From a virus: a stretch of DNA of 28,462 nt. Of the stretch, positions 8,183 to 15,275 are shown piece by piece. The position numbers and the translations under genes were made by a program. The notes under the pieces were generated by a model. That model had not been told where the DNA came from. It saw nothing but the letters and a program-made list of their open reading frames with translations, and searched no databases. How positions within the stretch are numbered: the first letter of the stretch is position 1; each line of letters starts with the position of its first letter. The stretch lies in the IMG/VR virus record IMGVR_UViG_3300032315_000835, positions 1-28,462 of that record; one strand, given 5' to 3'.

Positions 8183-8559
8183 TATTTCAGCTCAAAGTGA
8201 GGGCCGTCGCGAAACTTAAGCCAGTCCGCGCCAGCTATGATAGGTACGCCCTGCTGCTTGGCAAAAGCCTTCAGATCGTCAGCCAGCAGCCGGTACAGCG
8301 GCCAATCCCACCGGACCTCACCATCTACCACCACTGCAAGATCCACGGCCCTGCCTGTCAGGTGTTTGGAGTTCAGCGTACGGGACGCGCCGGCCTTGAC
8401 CAGCTCTGCCTGCCGTTGCGGCGTTCTGATGCCCTCCGTGACGATGAACGCCTGCCGGGCGTGTCTGGCGTAGTCGGTCATCAGTTTGGTCAGTGTTGGA
8501 TGTACGCCCTGTAGCCGCTTACGCGAGCGCTCATCCATCCGCGAGTTGCCGGTGTTCAT
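8182..8559 (-). CDS. M15-family peptidase, endolysin
   Basis: This 125-residue zinc peptidase of the D-Ala-D-Ala carboxypeptidase/endopeptidase type would cleave peptidoglycan cross-links at lysis. The zinc-binding pattern is visible: H66 and D73 in SKHLTGRAVDLA, and H121 in the C-terminal DGPHFEL, with the ADW motif at 111-113. There is no signal peptide, so export would depend on a holin. The start at 8559 is supported by AGAGGGG a few bases upstream; the internal ATG at 8538 has no such site. The frame overlaps the small terminase end by 29 bases. Its position inside the packaging genes, far from the holin near 23 kb, is notable. Confidence 0.9.
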   Translation of the reverse strand: MNTGNSRMDERSRKRLQGVHPTLTKLMTDYARHARQAFIVTEGIRTPQRQAELVKAGASRTLNSKHLTGRAVDLAVVVDGEVRWDWPLYRLLADDLKAFAKQQGVPIIAGADWLKFRDGPHFELK

Positions 8560-8956
8560 ACGTCCCCTCTATCACACGTTGCTCTGCTGCGGCCAGTGCG
8601 TCCTTGATGCTGATCTGCGTTTGCACGTTTACGTTCAGTTGCTGCGCGGCCGTCCAACCATGCACGTGCTTAAGGACGTCCAGCGCTGCCTTGGCGTCGC
8701 CCTGACGCGCGGCGCTGATCAGCACGTCTGCCATTTCCGCTTCAGCGTCAGCCTTGCCTTTGACAACGGCAAGCTCAACCAGCGGATCCATCTGTTTAAG
8801 CCGGTTGAATTCGACAGGCATAAGTCCTGACGCCAGCGCAAGGGCGTCGTTTTTCAGTCCCTTACGCGCGGCCTCATAAATGCGCTCCAGGCGTTGCTCG
8901 GTAGCTTTTAACGCCGGCCGCACCTCAAGAGGCAATGAATAAAACGTGTGGTTCAT
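8531..8956 (-). CDS. terS: Terminase small subunit
   Basis: The product has 141 residues, all-helical, starting MNHTFYSLPLEVRPALKATE. The C-terminal part DAKAALDVLKHVHGWTAAQQ followed by LNVNVQTQISIKDALAAAEQ is the oligomerisation/terminase-contact region I know from many podovirus and siphovirus small terminases. It would recognise the packaging start site and regulate TerL. It is the first gene of the leftward late operon and abuts the non-coding control region. No strong Shine-Dalgarno precedes the ATG; instead a palindrome (TGTACTGTACA) lies 5-15 bases upstream. The family call rests on pattern and position. Confidence 0.85.
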   Translation of the reverse strand: MNHTFYSLPLEVRPALKATEQRLERIYEAARKGLKNDALALASGLMPVEFNRLKQMDPLVELAVVKGKADAEAEMADVLISAARQGDAKAALDVLKHVHGWTAAQQLNVNVQTQISIKDALAAAEQRVIEGTYEHRQLADG

Positions 8957-9019: not shown

Positions 9020-9170
9020 ACCATTCCCCTGCCGGCCCCCCCTCCCCCCTCGTTTACCGCTCGTTAACCATGCCCCAAGCAAGGATTTACAAATGGTTAA
9101 AACCTTGCTGCCAGTAGGGGTTAAGATCTGGTAAATTGACGTAGGGGAAGCGTACCAGGTGCGAAGACCT

Positions 9171-9375
9171 TTGGGTCATTTGGGTAGTGGATCAACAAGA
9201 GGTGGGCATCTACGCGCCTAGGGACGCCCGCCTAGGGGCGTTGGGTAGTTTGGGTCATTTGGGTAGTGGGTTGAAAGCCGGTAGGCGTCTACGCGCTACC
9301 AGGACGCCTCGGCATGGGCTATGGACGCCCGGCGTGGGTCTTGGGTCATTTTGGGTCTTTTGGGTCATTTGGGCA
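9171..9375 (+). repeat. Tandem TTGGGT 9-mer array (iteron-like)
   Basis: TTGGGT occurs at 9171, 9180, 9241, 9250, 9259, 9341, 9351 and 9360, with TTGGGC at 9369. Within clusters the spacing is 9 bases (once 10). The 20-mer TTGGGTCATTTGGGTAGTGG at 9171-9190 recurs at 9250-9269, exactly 79 bases on, and TCTACGCGC recurs at 9209 and 9288, also 79 bases apart. GGACGCC recurs at 9222 and 9302. So there are two tandem units of about 79 bp and a third, diverged one from 9341. Confidence 0.85.
9235..9270 (+). other. G-quadruplex motif 1
   Basis: Five runs of at least three G (9235-9238, 9243-9245, 9252-9254, 9261-9263, 9268-9270) are separated by loops of 4, 6, 6 and 4 bases. This satisfies the canonical four-run, 1-7 base loop rule on the plus strand. 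The motif is made by the 9-mer array itself. Confidence 0.7.
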
Positions 9376-9381
9376 GGGGGG
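9336..9381 (+). other. G-quadruplex motif 2
   Basis: G runs at 9336-9338, 9343-9345, 9353-9355, 9362-9364, 9371-9373 and 9376-9381 have loops of 4, 7, 6, 6 and 2 bases. This is a canonical plus-strand quadruplex motif directly left of the AT-rich patch at 9423-9462. Confidence 0.7.
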
Positions 9382-9422
9382 AAAAAAGCATTCGGCGAAA
9401 ACGGACGCGCGCAGTCTAGGGG

Positions 9423-9462
9423 CCATATACCTATATATAAAAAAACAATTTAGATAGAAACC
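9423..9462. other. AT-rich patch, possible duplex-unwinding element
   Basis: The forty bases include CTATATATAAAAAAAC and AATTTAGATAG and stand out sharply from GC-rich surroundings. TTGGGT repeats lie on the left in the forward direction, and the inverted copy lies on the right from 9464. An unwinding element next to initiator-binding repeats is the inferred role. Confidence 0.5.
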
Positions 9463-9463
9463 T

Positions 9464-9484
9464 ACTACCCAAATGACCCAAAAA
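9464..9484 (-). repeat. Inverted copy of the TTGGGT 9-mers
   Basis: Read on the minus strand this is TTTTGGGTCATTTGGGTAGT, the same core as the plus-strand units at 9171 and 9250, now facing the AT-rich patch from the other side. It gives the region a dyad layout. Confidence 0.8.
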
Positions 9485-9543
9485 GCCAAATAAGCTAGTA
9501 ATTACAAGGCTAAAACATGGGCAATCCGCGCGGCGTCCCTTAA

Positions 9544-9568
9544 CCCAACTCCCACCCAACCCGCACCC
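9544..9568 (-). other. G-quadruplex motif 3 on the opposite strand
   Basis: Runs of CCC at 9544, 9551, 9555, 9560 and 9566 are separated by 4, 1, 2 and 3 bases, giving a compact canonical G-quadruplex motif on the minus strand. ACCCAA hexamers (reverse of TTGGGT) are at 9543, 9554 and 9565. Opposite-strand quadruplex motifs thus lie on each side of the AT-rich patch. Confidence 0.65.
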
Positions 9569-9582
9569 AACTAATCACGCGC

Positions 9583-9635: not shown

Positions 9636-9677
9636 TGTCAATCTATGGTCCTTACATCAGTCCATAGATGTTTGACA
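9636..9677. promoter_or_regulatory. Large inverted repeat containing outward TTGACA boxes
   Basis: TGTCAATCTATGG (9636-9648) pairs with CCATAGA (9662-9668) plus TTGACA (9672-9677), leaving a TGT bulge and a 13-base loop. TTGACA is a perfect -35 hexamer on each strand, but no good -10 follows at 16-18 bases on either side. An operator or initiator site is therefore at least as likely as a promoter. Confidence 0.5.
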
Positions 9678-9689
9678 TTGCAGTAGATG

Positions 9690-9724: not shown

Positions 9725-9767
9725 AAAGCCCCCGGCTGCCGCGTCTAGCGGTGGCGCGGGGGCTTTT
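9725..9767 (+). terminator. Intrinsic terminator in front of the first early gene
   Basis: A 10-base stem (AAAGCCCCCG at 9725-9734 with CGGGGGCTTT at 9757-9766) is followed by T-rich GTCTTTT. There is an inner CCGC/GCGG stem in the loop. It precedes the leader of the gene at 9805, so it would cut transcripts coming from the control region unless antiterminated or overcome by a nearer promoter. Confidence 0.75.
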
Positions 9768-9804
9768 GTCTTTTATAGGACTACCCAAACACAAGGACGA
9801 AAAC

Positions 9805-12373: not shown

Positions 12374-12555
12374 TCATACACCTAAGCGACTATCGTAAGC
12401 CGGTCAGCGTGTGGCGCTCCTATCGCGTCCACGCGGTCGACCAACAGGGCCAGCCCCTGGCGCTGACATACCGCGCCATGAGCATAAACAGCGCCCGCTT
12501 CCGCGCTTTCAGGGACGGCGCGCGTCGCGTCGAAGCCATTGAGGAGATACGTTAA
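12370..12555 (+). CDS. Small basic early protein (61 aa), unknown
   Basis: The product starts MIIHLSDYRKPVSVWRSYRV, continues HAVDQQGQPLALTYRAMSIN, and ends with an arginine-rich helix (SARFRAFRDGARRVEAIEEI). Start and stop both overlap neighbouring genes (ATGA at 12370, TAATG at 12553-12557). The strong positive charge suggests nucleic-acid contact, but no family is recognised. Confidence 0.68.
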   Translation: MIIHLSDYRKPVSVWRSYRVHAVDQQGQPLALTYRAMSINSARFRAFRDGARRVEAIEEIR

Positions 12556-12635
12556 TGGACATTGCAATCGCTGTTATCGTTGTCATAGGGGCCGCCCTGT
12601 TCGCCGTCTTTATCCTGGAGGATCTGGTCTCATGA
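12555..12635 (+). CDS. 26-residue single-membrane-span micropeptide
   Basis: ATG at 12555 (TAATG overlap) to TGA at 12633-12635 (ATGA overlap) encodes MDIAIAVIVVIGAALFAVFI followed by LEDLVS. It is essentially one transmembrane helix of about 18 residues with acidic ends. Exact nesting between two coupled genes argues that it is translated. Its coding sequence also carries the GGAGG ribosome site (12617-12621) of the following regulator gene. The function is unknown; small phage membrane peptides can act in superinfection exclusion or host membrane changes, which is only a possibility here. Confidence 0.6.
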   Translation: MDIAIAVIVVIGAALFAVFILEDLVS

Positions 12636-13021
12636 CAGAACTAGATGACCTCCGCGCGAGACTTGCTCGCGCGGAGGAGGAGCTAGAGGCATGGCGGGCC
12701 ACTGGCCCCGGCGACGCCGAGCGTCTGCAATTGCAGGCGCTTGTGCTGCGCCGGGCGTTCCCGTGCTTGCCGGGGCATGCATCGGCCCTTCTGATGGCCG
12801 CCCTGGCCGCGTCCAGTCGGCCTATCAGCTACACCATGATCGACGATATCGTCCCGCCTACTCAGTCCGCCGACCGTAAAAGCCAATCGTTTCTTAGCAC
12901 GATAGTCTGTTACGTTCGCCGGGCTTTGGGGCCGGACGCTATCATAACCCACAGGGGCTATGGATATGAAATGACCCTTGCCGCGCGCCAGCGTGTGGCG
13001 GCTATTCTCGCCGCAGGTTGA
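12632..13021 (+). CDS. Winged-helix DNA-binding protein with N-terminal coiled coil
   Basis: The product has 129 residues from the ATG at 12632, 10 bases after GGAGG; an upstream in-frame ATG at 12539 would run through two other genes and is rejected. Residues 1-40 form a charged coiled coil (LDDLRARLARAEEELEAWRA). Residues of about 66-115 read ISYTMIDDIV, then SFLSTIVCYVRRALGPDAII and THRGYGYEMT. The latter strongly resembles the OmpR/PhoB-type winged helix ('VxxHIxxLRxKLxxxxIxTxRGxGYxL'). There is no receiver domain. A dimeric transcription regulator is likely. The operator-like palindromes at 8961-9019 are possible targets (inference). The 3' end overlaps the convergent primase gene by 20 bases. 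Confidence 0.75.
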   Translation: MTELDDLRARLARAEEELEAWRATGPGDAERLQLQALVLRRAFPCLPGHASALLMAALAASSRPISYTMIDDIVPPTQSADRKSQSFLSTIVCYVRRALGPDAIITHRGYGYEMTLAARQRVAAILAAG

Positions 13022-15275
13022 TGACGTTACCTTCAAGCTTCGCCGGTTCGATCAACCGGCGAAGCTCACTCTTACTATGCGCCCGCGCGACGTCCGGGTG
13101 CGCCCATACGTCGGCCTTTGTCGGGTGGTCCGCCGAGTGCAGCCGCCCCACGAACGTCCACTTCGCCTCTTTCAGGGCATGGAAAAGCGCCGTCTTGTAC
13201 AGTTTCAGCGATGGCGGGGCCATAGCCTGCGCCCGGTCAATCACGCCCGACCAGGGCGCGCCGACAACCCCGCGCGCGAACTCGCCCTGCCGCCGTTCGA
13301 TCATGCCGAGCAGGTAATCCTCAGCCGCCGTCATGCCGCCGCTGATCAGGCTTTCCTTCTCTTCCGTCACAAACGGGATTGCAGCCGGGTTGAACGCCGA
13401 GACGTCGCGATCCGCGAGCCATCGCGCACACGTCGCGAACCCGCCCGCCCTGTACCAGTCCCATATCCGCCGCGCGCGAGGCTCATCGAGCCGCCCCGCT
13501 GCCGACCGGACAACGAACCAGCGCCGGTCCTGCGAGCTAATGCTGATGGGGACCGCCTCGTTCGAGAACGCGAGGACGAACAGGCGGTTCGCGGCGTCAT
13601 ACGGGTGCAGCATCTTCCTGTTCACGCTGATGGTGTCAGGCGGGGCCGCGATCAAAGGCTTAAGCCGGTTCGCGAGGAAGCGACGCTGCGCCGCCTCTGG
13701 TTCGTGAAGCTCGTTCAGTATCAACACCTCGCTCTCGTAAGCGTAGCCCCATGCGCTGGACAGGTCGCCACCCTGGACGATGGCGCGGTTGCGCGCGTCA
13801 GGACCGCACACGGCCCACAGGAACGGTGCCCACAGCGTGTCCTTTCCGGTTCCTTCATCGCCCATATGCAGGATCGCGTGGTTGATCTTGACGCTGGGGT
13901 GCTGGACCTTGAACGCCATGACGTCGAGCACGTGCTCTCGCTCGCGCGCGATAGGTATGAGGTGCGCCGCTAGGTCGAGCCACAGCGACACGTCCCCAGC
14001 CGCCACGCCCGCCAGCGATGGGCGGCCGTCAATCCAGAGGTTACCTTTCGGTTCGCCGTTGTGCAGCACGATAGGGCTATCGCCGGCGGCGTAGGTCAGC
14101 CCGGCGAGCGTCTGGCCGCCCATCTCCAGGCGGTTCTGATCGTACCATATGCTCGCCTCGCATGGGCGGTCGTTTTTGATCGACTTGCAAGCCACGTGAC
14201 GGTAGATCGCGTTAAAAGCGCTGCGAGACAGTATGCGCCGCGTCTCAAGATCGAAGTAAGCATCGTCGCTCTCCACATAGGCATAGCGTGCGAACCAGCC
14301 CGCCCGTTCCAGCCGCTGCTTTTCTTTGCGCTCGCTCGCGACAACGATAGGGTTAGGCGCAGGTTCAAGCTTGCCCAGCGACGCCTGCAACCGGGCTGAC
14401 AGTAGATCTGTCCGCAGGCCCGCCGCTACCTGCGGCCCGCCCTGGTCGGCGATCCAGTCCAGGTAGACCTCAGAGGTGAGGTGCTGGCAGTGAGCGTGCA
14501 GGCAGGCGAAGCCGTTGTCGCTGGGATGAAACCGTGCCGCCACCCCGCCGCCCGTGTGATGCGCCGCGTTGGGGCACGTCACATCGCACCACCCGGCACC
14601 GTTGACCCGTGACAGTAGCAGGCCCTGCGCCGCGAGCCACTCGACGACCGGCCCGCTGTCGCTGCCCGGCAGCGTGACAGGCGCGACGCTCGCGCCCGCC
14701 TCCTCGCCGGGCGTCACGCCCAGCGCGGTCACGATCTCAGCCAGCGTGTACTCGCGCGCGGGCTCGAACTCCAGCAATTCCGCCGCGAACCGGTCGCGGC
14801 CCTCTTTCAGGTTGATCGAGCCCGGCACCCGTACGTTGCGTACCGCGTTGCACGCGCCCGGATCGCTGTAGCCCGCCGCTGCGATAGCCTGTATGGCCGC
14901 CGTGTACTCGCCCGTCGTCGGCTGTTCACTGAAGACATAGCCCCACTGTTCGCTGCCCGGCGACGTCTCGATCCGCCATGTGGGCGGCAGCGCCGCTGCC
15001 CGCGTGACCTTGGACGTGCCCACGTCATCCAGGATAAGGAACAGGACGTGCGTACAGCACGATGCGCTGGCCGATGGCTGGCCGTCGCGGAAACGGTCAA
15101 CGATAAACGAGCCGGTGTTAGCGTACCATGCCTCGCCTTCCTTCAACCGCACGTCAGGCAGGAACGCGGGCCATGTATACGATCCGTCTCGTCTAGGCTT
15201 CTGCCGCACCACAAGCGCCGTCTCGCCCTCTGGCGCGAGGCTGGCGATGAAGTCAATGAACCGTCTATTTTCCAT
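13002..15275 (-). CDS. Primase-helicase (AEP-like primase, zinc finger, SF3-like ATPase)
   Basis: The product has 757 residues. The N-terminal primase-like part carries LFLILDDVGTSK (acidic D83/D84), RIETSPGSEQWGYVF (101-115) and NVRVPGSINLK (147-157), the pattern of archaeo-eukaryotic primase-type proteins. A zinc-finger-like set C230, C234, C258, C263 (GFACLHAHC) follows. The C-terminal ATPase has Walker A GDEGTGKD (472-479), Walker B EVLILNELHE (516-525) and a later asparagine sensor LAFSNEAVP. Together they would lay primers and unwind the fork. The ATG at 15275 overlaps the polymerase stop by 11 bases. It is the last gene of the leftward replication operon, and its 3' end contains a 13-bp inverted repeat at 13036-13066. 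Confidence 0.9.
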   Translation of the reverse strand: MENRRFIDFIASLAPEGETALVVRQKPRRDGSYTWPAFLPDVRLKEGEAWYANTGSFIVDRFRDGQPSASASCCTHVLFLILDDVGTSKVTRAAALPPTWRIETSPGSEQWGYVFSEQPTTGEYTAAIQAIAAAGYSDPGACNAVRNVRVPGSINLKEGRDRFAAELLEFEPAREYTLAEIVTALGVTPGEEAGASVAPVTLPGSDSGPVVEWLAAQGLLLSRVNGAGWCDVTCPNAAHHTGGGVAARFHPSDNGFACLHAHCQHLTSEVYLDWIADQGGPQVAAGLRTDLLSARLQASLGKLEPAPNPIVVASERKEKQRLERAGWFARYAYVESDDAYFDLETRRILSRSAFNAIYRHVACKSIKNDRPCEASIWYDQNRLEMGGQTLAGLTYAAGDSPIVLHNGEPKGNLWIDGRPSLAGVAAGDVSLWLDLAAHLIPIAREREHVLDVMAFKVQHPSVKINHAILHMGDEGTGKDTLWAPFLWAVCGPDARNRAIVQGGDLSSAWGYAYESEVLILNELHEPEAAQRRFLANRLKPLIAAPPDTISVNRKMLHPYDAANRLFVLAFSNEAVPISISSQDRRWFVVRSAAGRLDEPRARRIWDWYRAGGFATCARWLADRDVSAFNPAAIPFVTEEKESLISGGMTAAEDYLLGMIERRQGEFARGVVGAPWSGVIDRAQAMAPPSLKLYKTALFHALKEAKWTFVGRLHSADHPTKADVWAHPDVARAHSKSELRRLIEPAKLEGNVINLRRE
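13036..13066. terminator. Bidirectional hairpin at the convergent junction
   Basis: AGCTTCGCCGGTT (13036-13048) and its exact complement (13054-13066) enclose CGATC. It starts 15 bases after the stop of the rightward winged-helix gene and lies inside the last codons of the leftward primase gene. There is no T-run on either side, so classic termination is uncertain; it may end or protect the rightward mRNA. Confidence 0.55.

Follow-up and report, generated by a model that had tools for sequence, protein, structure and literature searches.

A putative replication origin in a family of uncultured podophages, likely read by the C-terminal winged helix of a primase-helicase

Our analysis indicates that a repeat array at positions 9170-9573 of an uncultured phage, which we call a podophage, is very probably a replication origin, read by the C-terminal winged helix of the primase-helicase encoded a few kilobases away. 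The anatomy of the array, its conservation in relatives and the covariation of its boxes with the wing of that domain are observed directly; there are no replication or binding data. The earlier note on this DNA had also read the array as an origin, and the reading gains support from comparative sequence evidence alone, with replication itself inferred and the initiator now made specific.

Results

The array and its setting

The window, by which we mean the whole stretch of DNA analysed, is an entire IMG/VR record of 28,462 bp, classed as linear and probably a fragment. Its leftward genes include those for endolysin, TerL, portal, DNA-ejection and tail proteins and, between 13 and 19 kb, a primase-helicase, PolA, a 215-aa protein (the 'ssb' landmark of our gene-order comparison) and an exonuclease; a DUF7227 protein is among the products of the small rightward genes. 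The array lies in a divergent gap, with terS on one side and the rightward genes on the other, and is made up as follows.

8531-8956, minus strand: terS-like gene, a landmark immediately left of the array, assigned by position and synteny, with a weak PHROG match to the terminase small subunit
9170-9188, plus strand: iteron pair 1, TTTGGGTCA TTTGGGTAG T
9240-9267, plus strand: iteron group 2, three 9-bp boxes, GTTGGGTAG TTTGGGTCA TTTGGGTAG T
9340-9374, plus strand: iteron group 3, four boxes at a 9-10 bp period, CTTGGGTCATTTTGGGTCTTTTGGGTCATTTGGGC, adjoining the A+T patch and aligning with TTCTGGGTCACTTGGGTCATCTGGGTCAT of the related locus L095
9425-9464, no strand: A+T-rich patch (33/40 A+T), a candidate duplex-unwinding element, relatives also having an A+T patch in this position
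9464-9482, minus strand: inverted iteron pair beyond the A+T patch
9543-9573, minus strand: three inverted half-boxes with 11-bp spacing, 2.7 copies of ACCCAACTCCC

The main points of the earlier description all hold, with one correction. The eight plus-strand copies of TTGGGT, mostly at a 9-base period, start at 9171, 9180, 9241, 9250, 9259, 9341, 9351 and 9360; the inverted core is complementary to pair 1 at 19 of 19 positions; and the A+T patch is real, being the richest A+T 40-mer of the window. The proposed 79-bp tandem units stand for the first two (at 9170 and 9249; 81% over 48 nt) and fail for the third, which lies about 101-110 bp further on and is better described as diverged than as simply partial. 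Absent from the earlier description are three additional inverted copies, at 9543, 9554 and 9565, spaced by exactly 11 bp; L095 keeps this trio with a matching base change, CCCAA to CCCAG. Eight TTGGGT on one strand within 200 bp compare with at most two in 200 dinucleotide shuffles, and in 30 shuffles no 6-mer with at least three different bases exceeded four copies per 200 bp. Over the whole window and both strands TTGGGT occurs 26 times against 10.8 expected (the largest of 100 shuffles gave 19), and the 15-mer TTGGGTCATTTGGGT, with up to one mismatch allowed, is confined within the record to the array stretch. An 88-aa ORF with a GTG start that spans the array (9187-9453) is without supporting evidence, an Rfam search gave no match, and blastn of the array region against named phages gave none either.

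Conserved anatomy in relatives

Searches of IMG/VR returned 80 loci with TerL, 80 with the primase-helicase and 72 with terS, and about 100 loci share the gene order portal, terL, terS, gap, rightward small genes, primase-helicase, polA, ssb, exo. The nearest named genomes by TerL, MW202483 (69%) and OR003940 (61%), come by their records solely from samples of spring and lake water; epsilon15 and phiV10 are more distant TerL relatives (38%). Bacterial genomes searched for relatives that might name a host yielded none.

For the anatomy we used 92 non-redundant regions upstream of terS. In most of them this non-coding slot holds boxes of 9-bp period, an A+T patch and an inverted copy. There are 213 lag-9 runs with at least seven identities, spread over 75 loci; shuffles yield 11 and primase coding DNA 8, and every other lag from 4 to 24 gives at most 83 runs. 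The inverted copy across the A+T patch is found at 15/17 or better in 64 of the 92 relatives, as compared with 2 of 92 after block shuffling. Adjacent iteron copies lie 9 bp apart in 96 cases on the plus strand and 38 on the minus strand, an 11-bp class being minor; automatic iteron calling left more than a third of the non-redundant loci without a clean call.

Conservation of the 9-mer in relatives had been put forward as a check on the origin. The literal 9-mer is not kept, but the architecture is, and the changes track the initiator. The 9-mers differ among phages, being TGTGGACAA in 14 loci, TTTGGGTCA in 7, and TCTCGGCAA, TTTTGGTCA, TGTTGGCAT or others elsewhere. The exact 18-mer was likewise rejected as a conserved element, a literal IMG/VR search for it giving nine contigs, most of them without an array.

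Three further elements flank the array. Between 9004 and 9051, some 50-100 nt upstream of terS, GGTGACC is accompanied by a GTAC/GGTACC palindrome and a C-rich tract (GGCCCCCCCTCCCCCC); such a tract near terS is present in 35 of 92 relatives and in 1 of 92 shuffled sequences, and the element is a candidate packaging site or terS regulatory element. On the other side, upstream of the rightward genes, GATGTTTGACATTG (9667-9680) is identical in the window, L095 and L016 even though the flanks differ, and a hairpin followed by a T-rich tail (9739-9772) stands just before the first rightward gene as a terminator-like or leader structure, with a similar GC-rich stretch and T run in L095.

The primase-helicase and its C-terminal domain

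The protein that we propose as initiator has the following parts.

13002-15275, minus strand: primase-helicase, with a RepB/AEP-like primase, an SF3-type helicase core and a predicted C-terminal winged helix
13050-13364, minus strand: C-terminal winged-helix domain, residues 638-742, the proposed iteron reader (from AlphaFold2 and covariation)
13122-13139, minus strand: wing loop, residues 713-718 (HSADHP), the proposed base-reading residues

Pfam assigns it DUF5906 (E 2e-8) and, weakly, RepB_primase. In Foldseek the full model matches the NrS-1 helicase (6k9c, E 3e-15), D5/E5, AsfvPrimPol and SaPI PriRep1 (7pds), its N-terminal part matching RepB' (3h25). The Walker A motif is GDEGTGKDT, with G477, K478, D479 and T480 invariant. 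In the AlphaFold2 model of the full protein (mean pLDDT 80) the C-terminus consists of helices at 638-646, 650-660, 675-685 and 694-703 and strands at 707-714 and 717-725; in a separate model of the domain, with pLDDT mostly above 90, residues 713-720 form the loop between the strands, that is, the wing, and residues 715 and 718 sit in or beside it. The winged-helix assignment thus stays a prediction from topology (a two-strand wing) without a significant structural match: Foldseek of the isolated C-terminal model returned several winged helices only at E above 0.1 (best E 0.15), and the C-terminal profile found no credible match among PDB sequences. Across loci there is almost no variation in the helix preceding the wing (VPQAALLHALKEAGW in most) or in iteron bases 1, 3 and 5, and we suggest, by inference, that this helix contacts these bases.

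Which protein follows the iterons

The primase-helicase is the shared replication protein of these loci, no small DNA-binding gene being universal. Over 38 loci with more than 5% difference between their primase-helicases, we find iteron distance correlated with distance in the C-terminal 100 aa of the primase-helicase (rho 0.51, p 0.002), with terS (rho 0.38) and with terL (rho 0.28). The C-terminal correlation persists when the rest of the enzyme is held constant (partial 0.38, p 0.002), the reverse partial being -0.10, and in a sliding window the maximum, 0.565, falls at the extreme C-terminus. A second peak (rho 0.50), over residues ~1-98 (14982-15275), is unexplained.

Judged from these sequence comparisons, the primase-helicase is the most likely initiator, by way of its predicted C-terminal winged helix, rather than the product of the separate winged-helix ORF. 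That small ORF was rejected as the binder: a scan of the collection found no relatives, and among our loci only L095 and L096 have it. This OmpR-like ORF (12539-13021) occupies the slot that in relatives holds a gene for a stand-alone DnaA domain IV protein (Bac_DnaA_C, Pfam E 1e-17 in MW202483). The latter gene, convergent to the primase-helicase gene (L164:31423-31719 and 15 other loci), occurs in 16 non-redundant loci, which are clustered; it is missing from most loci and was discarded as a universal initiator.

A residue-to-base relation

A motif, GR[LIV]-x-S-x-x-x-[TS]KKHIF, varies along with the iteron. From the primase-helicase, terS and terL we took 733 variable columns and scored each against every iteron base, with 40 permutation maxima for comparison, and residues 713-718 supply the top predictor of bases 2, 4, 6, 7 and 8. 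Residue 715 comes first for base 2 (AMI 0.607, largest permutation maximum 0.320), and residue 718 for base 6 (0.499 against 0.288), base 7 (0.333 against 0.293) and base 8 (0.440 against 0.288). For base 4, residue 713 comes first with an AMI of 0.373, below the permutation maximum of 0.475 and so not significant. Strong signals for base 9 (terS 43, prim 128) were set aside, base 9 being mostly A and its permutation maxima high.

The underlying pattern is simple. Over 37 loci, Arg or Lys at residue 715 is found in 18 of 18 loci with G2 and in none of the 19 others, and Asp or Glu at residue 718 in 13 of 13 loci with A6 and in none of the 24 others. On a tree built from residues 1-620 only, with the C-terminal domain left out, residue 715 requires 10 changes and all 8 independent pairs on well-supported branches agree (p 0.0078); for residue 718, 6 of 6 independent switches agree (p 0.031). 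A near-minimal pair is provided by the window, with Ala715 and T2, and L095, with Thr715 and C2; L095 differs further by His717 to Tyr and by a few residues outside the wing.

One caveat is that, for seven consensus strings and for ten loci, we fixed the register manually ahead of the scan, when the motif table had already been seen. With an automatic register rule we examined 25 held-out loci, of which 12 gave no call; the base-2 rule was right in 12 of the 13 callable ones. A less strict tally shows TGTGGGTCA in loci with His713, Arg715 and Pro718, as the rules predict. Some held-out loci with Asp718 contain both A6 and G6 boxes, and the base-6 rule is therefore not strict.

These data incline us, by a modest preference only, to a broader proposal: that a large environmental podophage family carries a fast-diversifying origin-initiator code, in which single wing-loop residues would each read one base of the 9-bp boxes (Arg/Lys at 715 for G2, Asp/Glu at 718 for A6 and, possibly, at 713 Lys for G4 and Asp/Glu/Asn for C4), with specificity switched many times.

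Discussion

How else could such an array arise? Lying directly upstream of terS, it could be a packaging site (cos or pac) with boxes serving as binding sites for the small terminase of the adjacent gene, and the correlation of iteron with terS distance is in keeping with this. We nevertheless think it quite improbable. With the C-terminal domain held constant the terS signal is weak (partial 0.12, p 0.07), whereas the C-terminal domain keeps its signal under control for terS (0.38, p 0.004); the best column is in the primase-helicase wing for every well-varying iteron base except base 9; and the separate conserved C-rich tract, nearer to terS, is a better packaging-site candidate. The divergent intergenic position would equally suit an operator for divergent promoters, bound by the OmpR-like protein or by the DnaA domain IV protein of relatives. 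DnaA domain IV binds 9-mers, many relatives carry TGTGGACAA, which differs from the DnaA box TGTGGATAA at one position, and over 15 DnaA-type loci the DnaA protein follows the iteron with rho 0.88, the primase C-terminus with 0.72. Fifteen related loci, however, cannot tell shared ancestry from contact, the boxes are present in most loci whereas the OmpR-like protein is confined to 3 and the DnaA-like protein to 16 clustered non-redundant ones, and no sigma-70-like promoter was found in the array region; an operator thus seems unlikely to us. An origin of the DnaA-box kind (oriC-like, TTATCCACA-type) was also considered and rejected, the window's TTTGGGTCA having three mismatches to TGTGGATAA and the relatives' DnaA domain IV profile having no match in the window.

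Least credible of all, and barely to be entertained, is some other DNA process (recombination, attachment, partition) or a tandem-repeat expansion without function. Slippage can generate short tandem repeats, as is generally known, yet the slot and the inverted geometry are kept over wide divergence while the sequence shifts with residues of a protein, and we noticed neither an integrase nor a partition gene in the window's ORF list or family matches. The packaging and operator readings are less well supported than a replication origin, which we prefer because a domain fused to the replicative primase-helicase appears to read repeats that flank the most A+T-rich stretch.

Some observations count against an origin. 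The array lies about 3.5 kb from the initiator gene, and the change in GC skew expected at an origin by the earlier note did not materialise: there is no turn in the window, the skew extremes of MW202483 lie away from the array, and in 48 loci a comparison of genes of like direction on the two sides of the array lacks the expected replichore signal at third positions.

If the array is an origin, several copies of the primase-helicase would bind the 9-bp boxes by their C-terminal winged helices, physical binding being inferred. The nearly invariant recognition helix would fit those bases that hardly vary, leaving the variable ones to be read by the wing loop (residues 713-718), an assignment that is again an inference. 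The boxes flanking the A+T patch face each other, and two helicase rings could be loaded on them head to head and melt the patch; the RepB-like primase domain would then prime and the phage PolA extend. Melting, priming and the direction of replication are likewise inferred.

Few phage origins are known outside model phages, and initiator specificity is usually solved mutant by mutant. Here natural variation yields two residue-to-base rules and candidates for more, and gives a route to origins in uncultured phages with the same type of primase-helicase. It also prompts one to ask why the specificity of origins turns over so quickly. If the proposed code is true, switching origin specificity could keep the replicons of co-infecting phages apart.

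Comparison with known systems

In geminiviruses, iteron bases and residues of the iteron-related domain of Rep covary between species, and a partial code can be inferred; that Rep differs in being a rolling-circle HUH protein with an N-terminal reader, in an unrelated protein and virus. For the enzyme core alone, the closest solved helicase is that of the NrS-1 phage PrimPol-helicase. SaPI Rep and SCCmec Cch2 have been described as self-loading initiator helicases whose C-terminal domain recognises short iterons (PMC7581432). The window resembles these systems, SaPI Rep/PriRep1 and Cch2, in its short iterons and its (proposed) C-terminal reader, and SaPI5 Rep also in the fusion of primase and helicase, the solved PriRep1 structure matching the window protein. 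SaPI origins adjoin rep, directly downstream of the helicase gene (PMC7581432), a placement that the array, sited beside terS, does not share, and in relatives small genes intervene. The window further differs in belonging to a large phage family with 9-bp boxes of fast-changing sequence.

The alpha protein of satellite phage P4 is described in PMC4234260 (citing Ziegelin and Lanka 1995 and Yeo 2002) as a single protein that unites a primase, a helicase and a winged helix for origin binding, the helicase thus recognising the origin repeats through its C-terminal part. The window protein likewise joins primase and helicase, while its winged helix is predicted from topology and its binding of repeats is only proposed; the P4 primase is of the Toprim type (PMC4234260), whereas the N-terminus of the window protein matches AEP/RepB', and the window's C-terminal domain has no significant match to any solved domain. 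The principle of C-terminal iteron recognition is already known, in satellites, islands and plasmids; a limited open-access search of the literature did not find this phage family, a site beside terS, this geometry or a readable, fast-evolving code. Of the features of the P4-alpha/SaPI-Rep type, an SF3/AAA+ helicase fused to a primase is met in the window protein, short iterons with an A+T-rich stretch are met as anatomy only, and an origin specificity set by the C-terminal domain is supported by covariation only, with no experiment. By analogy, we read the array as an origin of the P4-alpha/SaPI-Rep design, situated beside the packaging genes.
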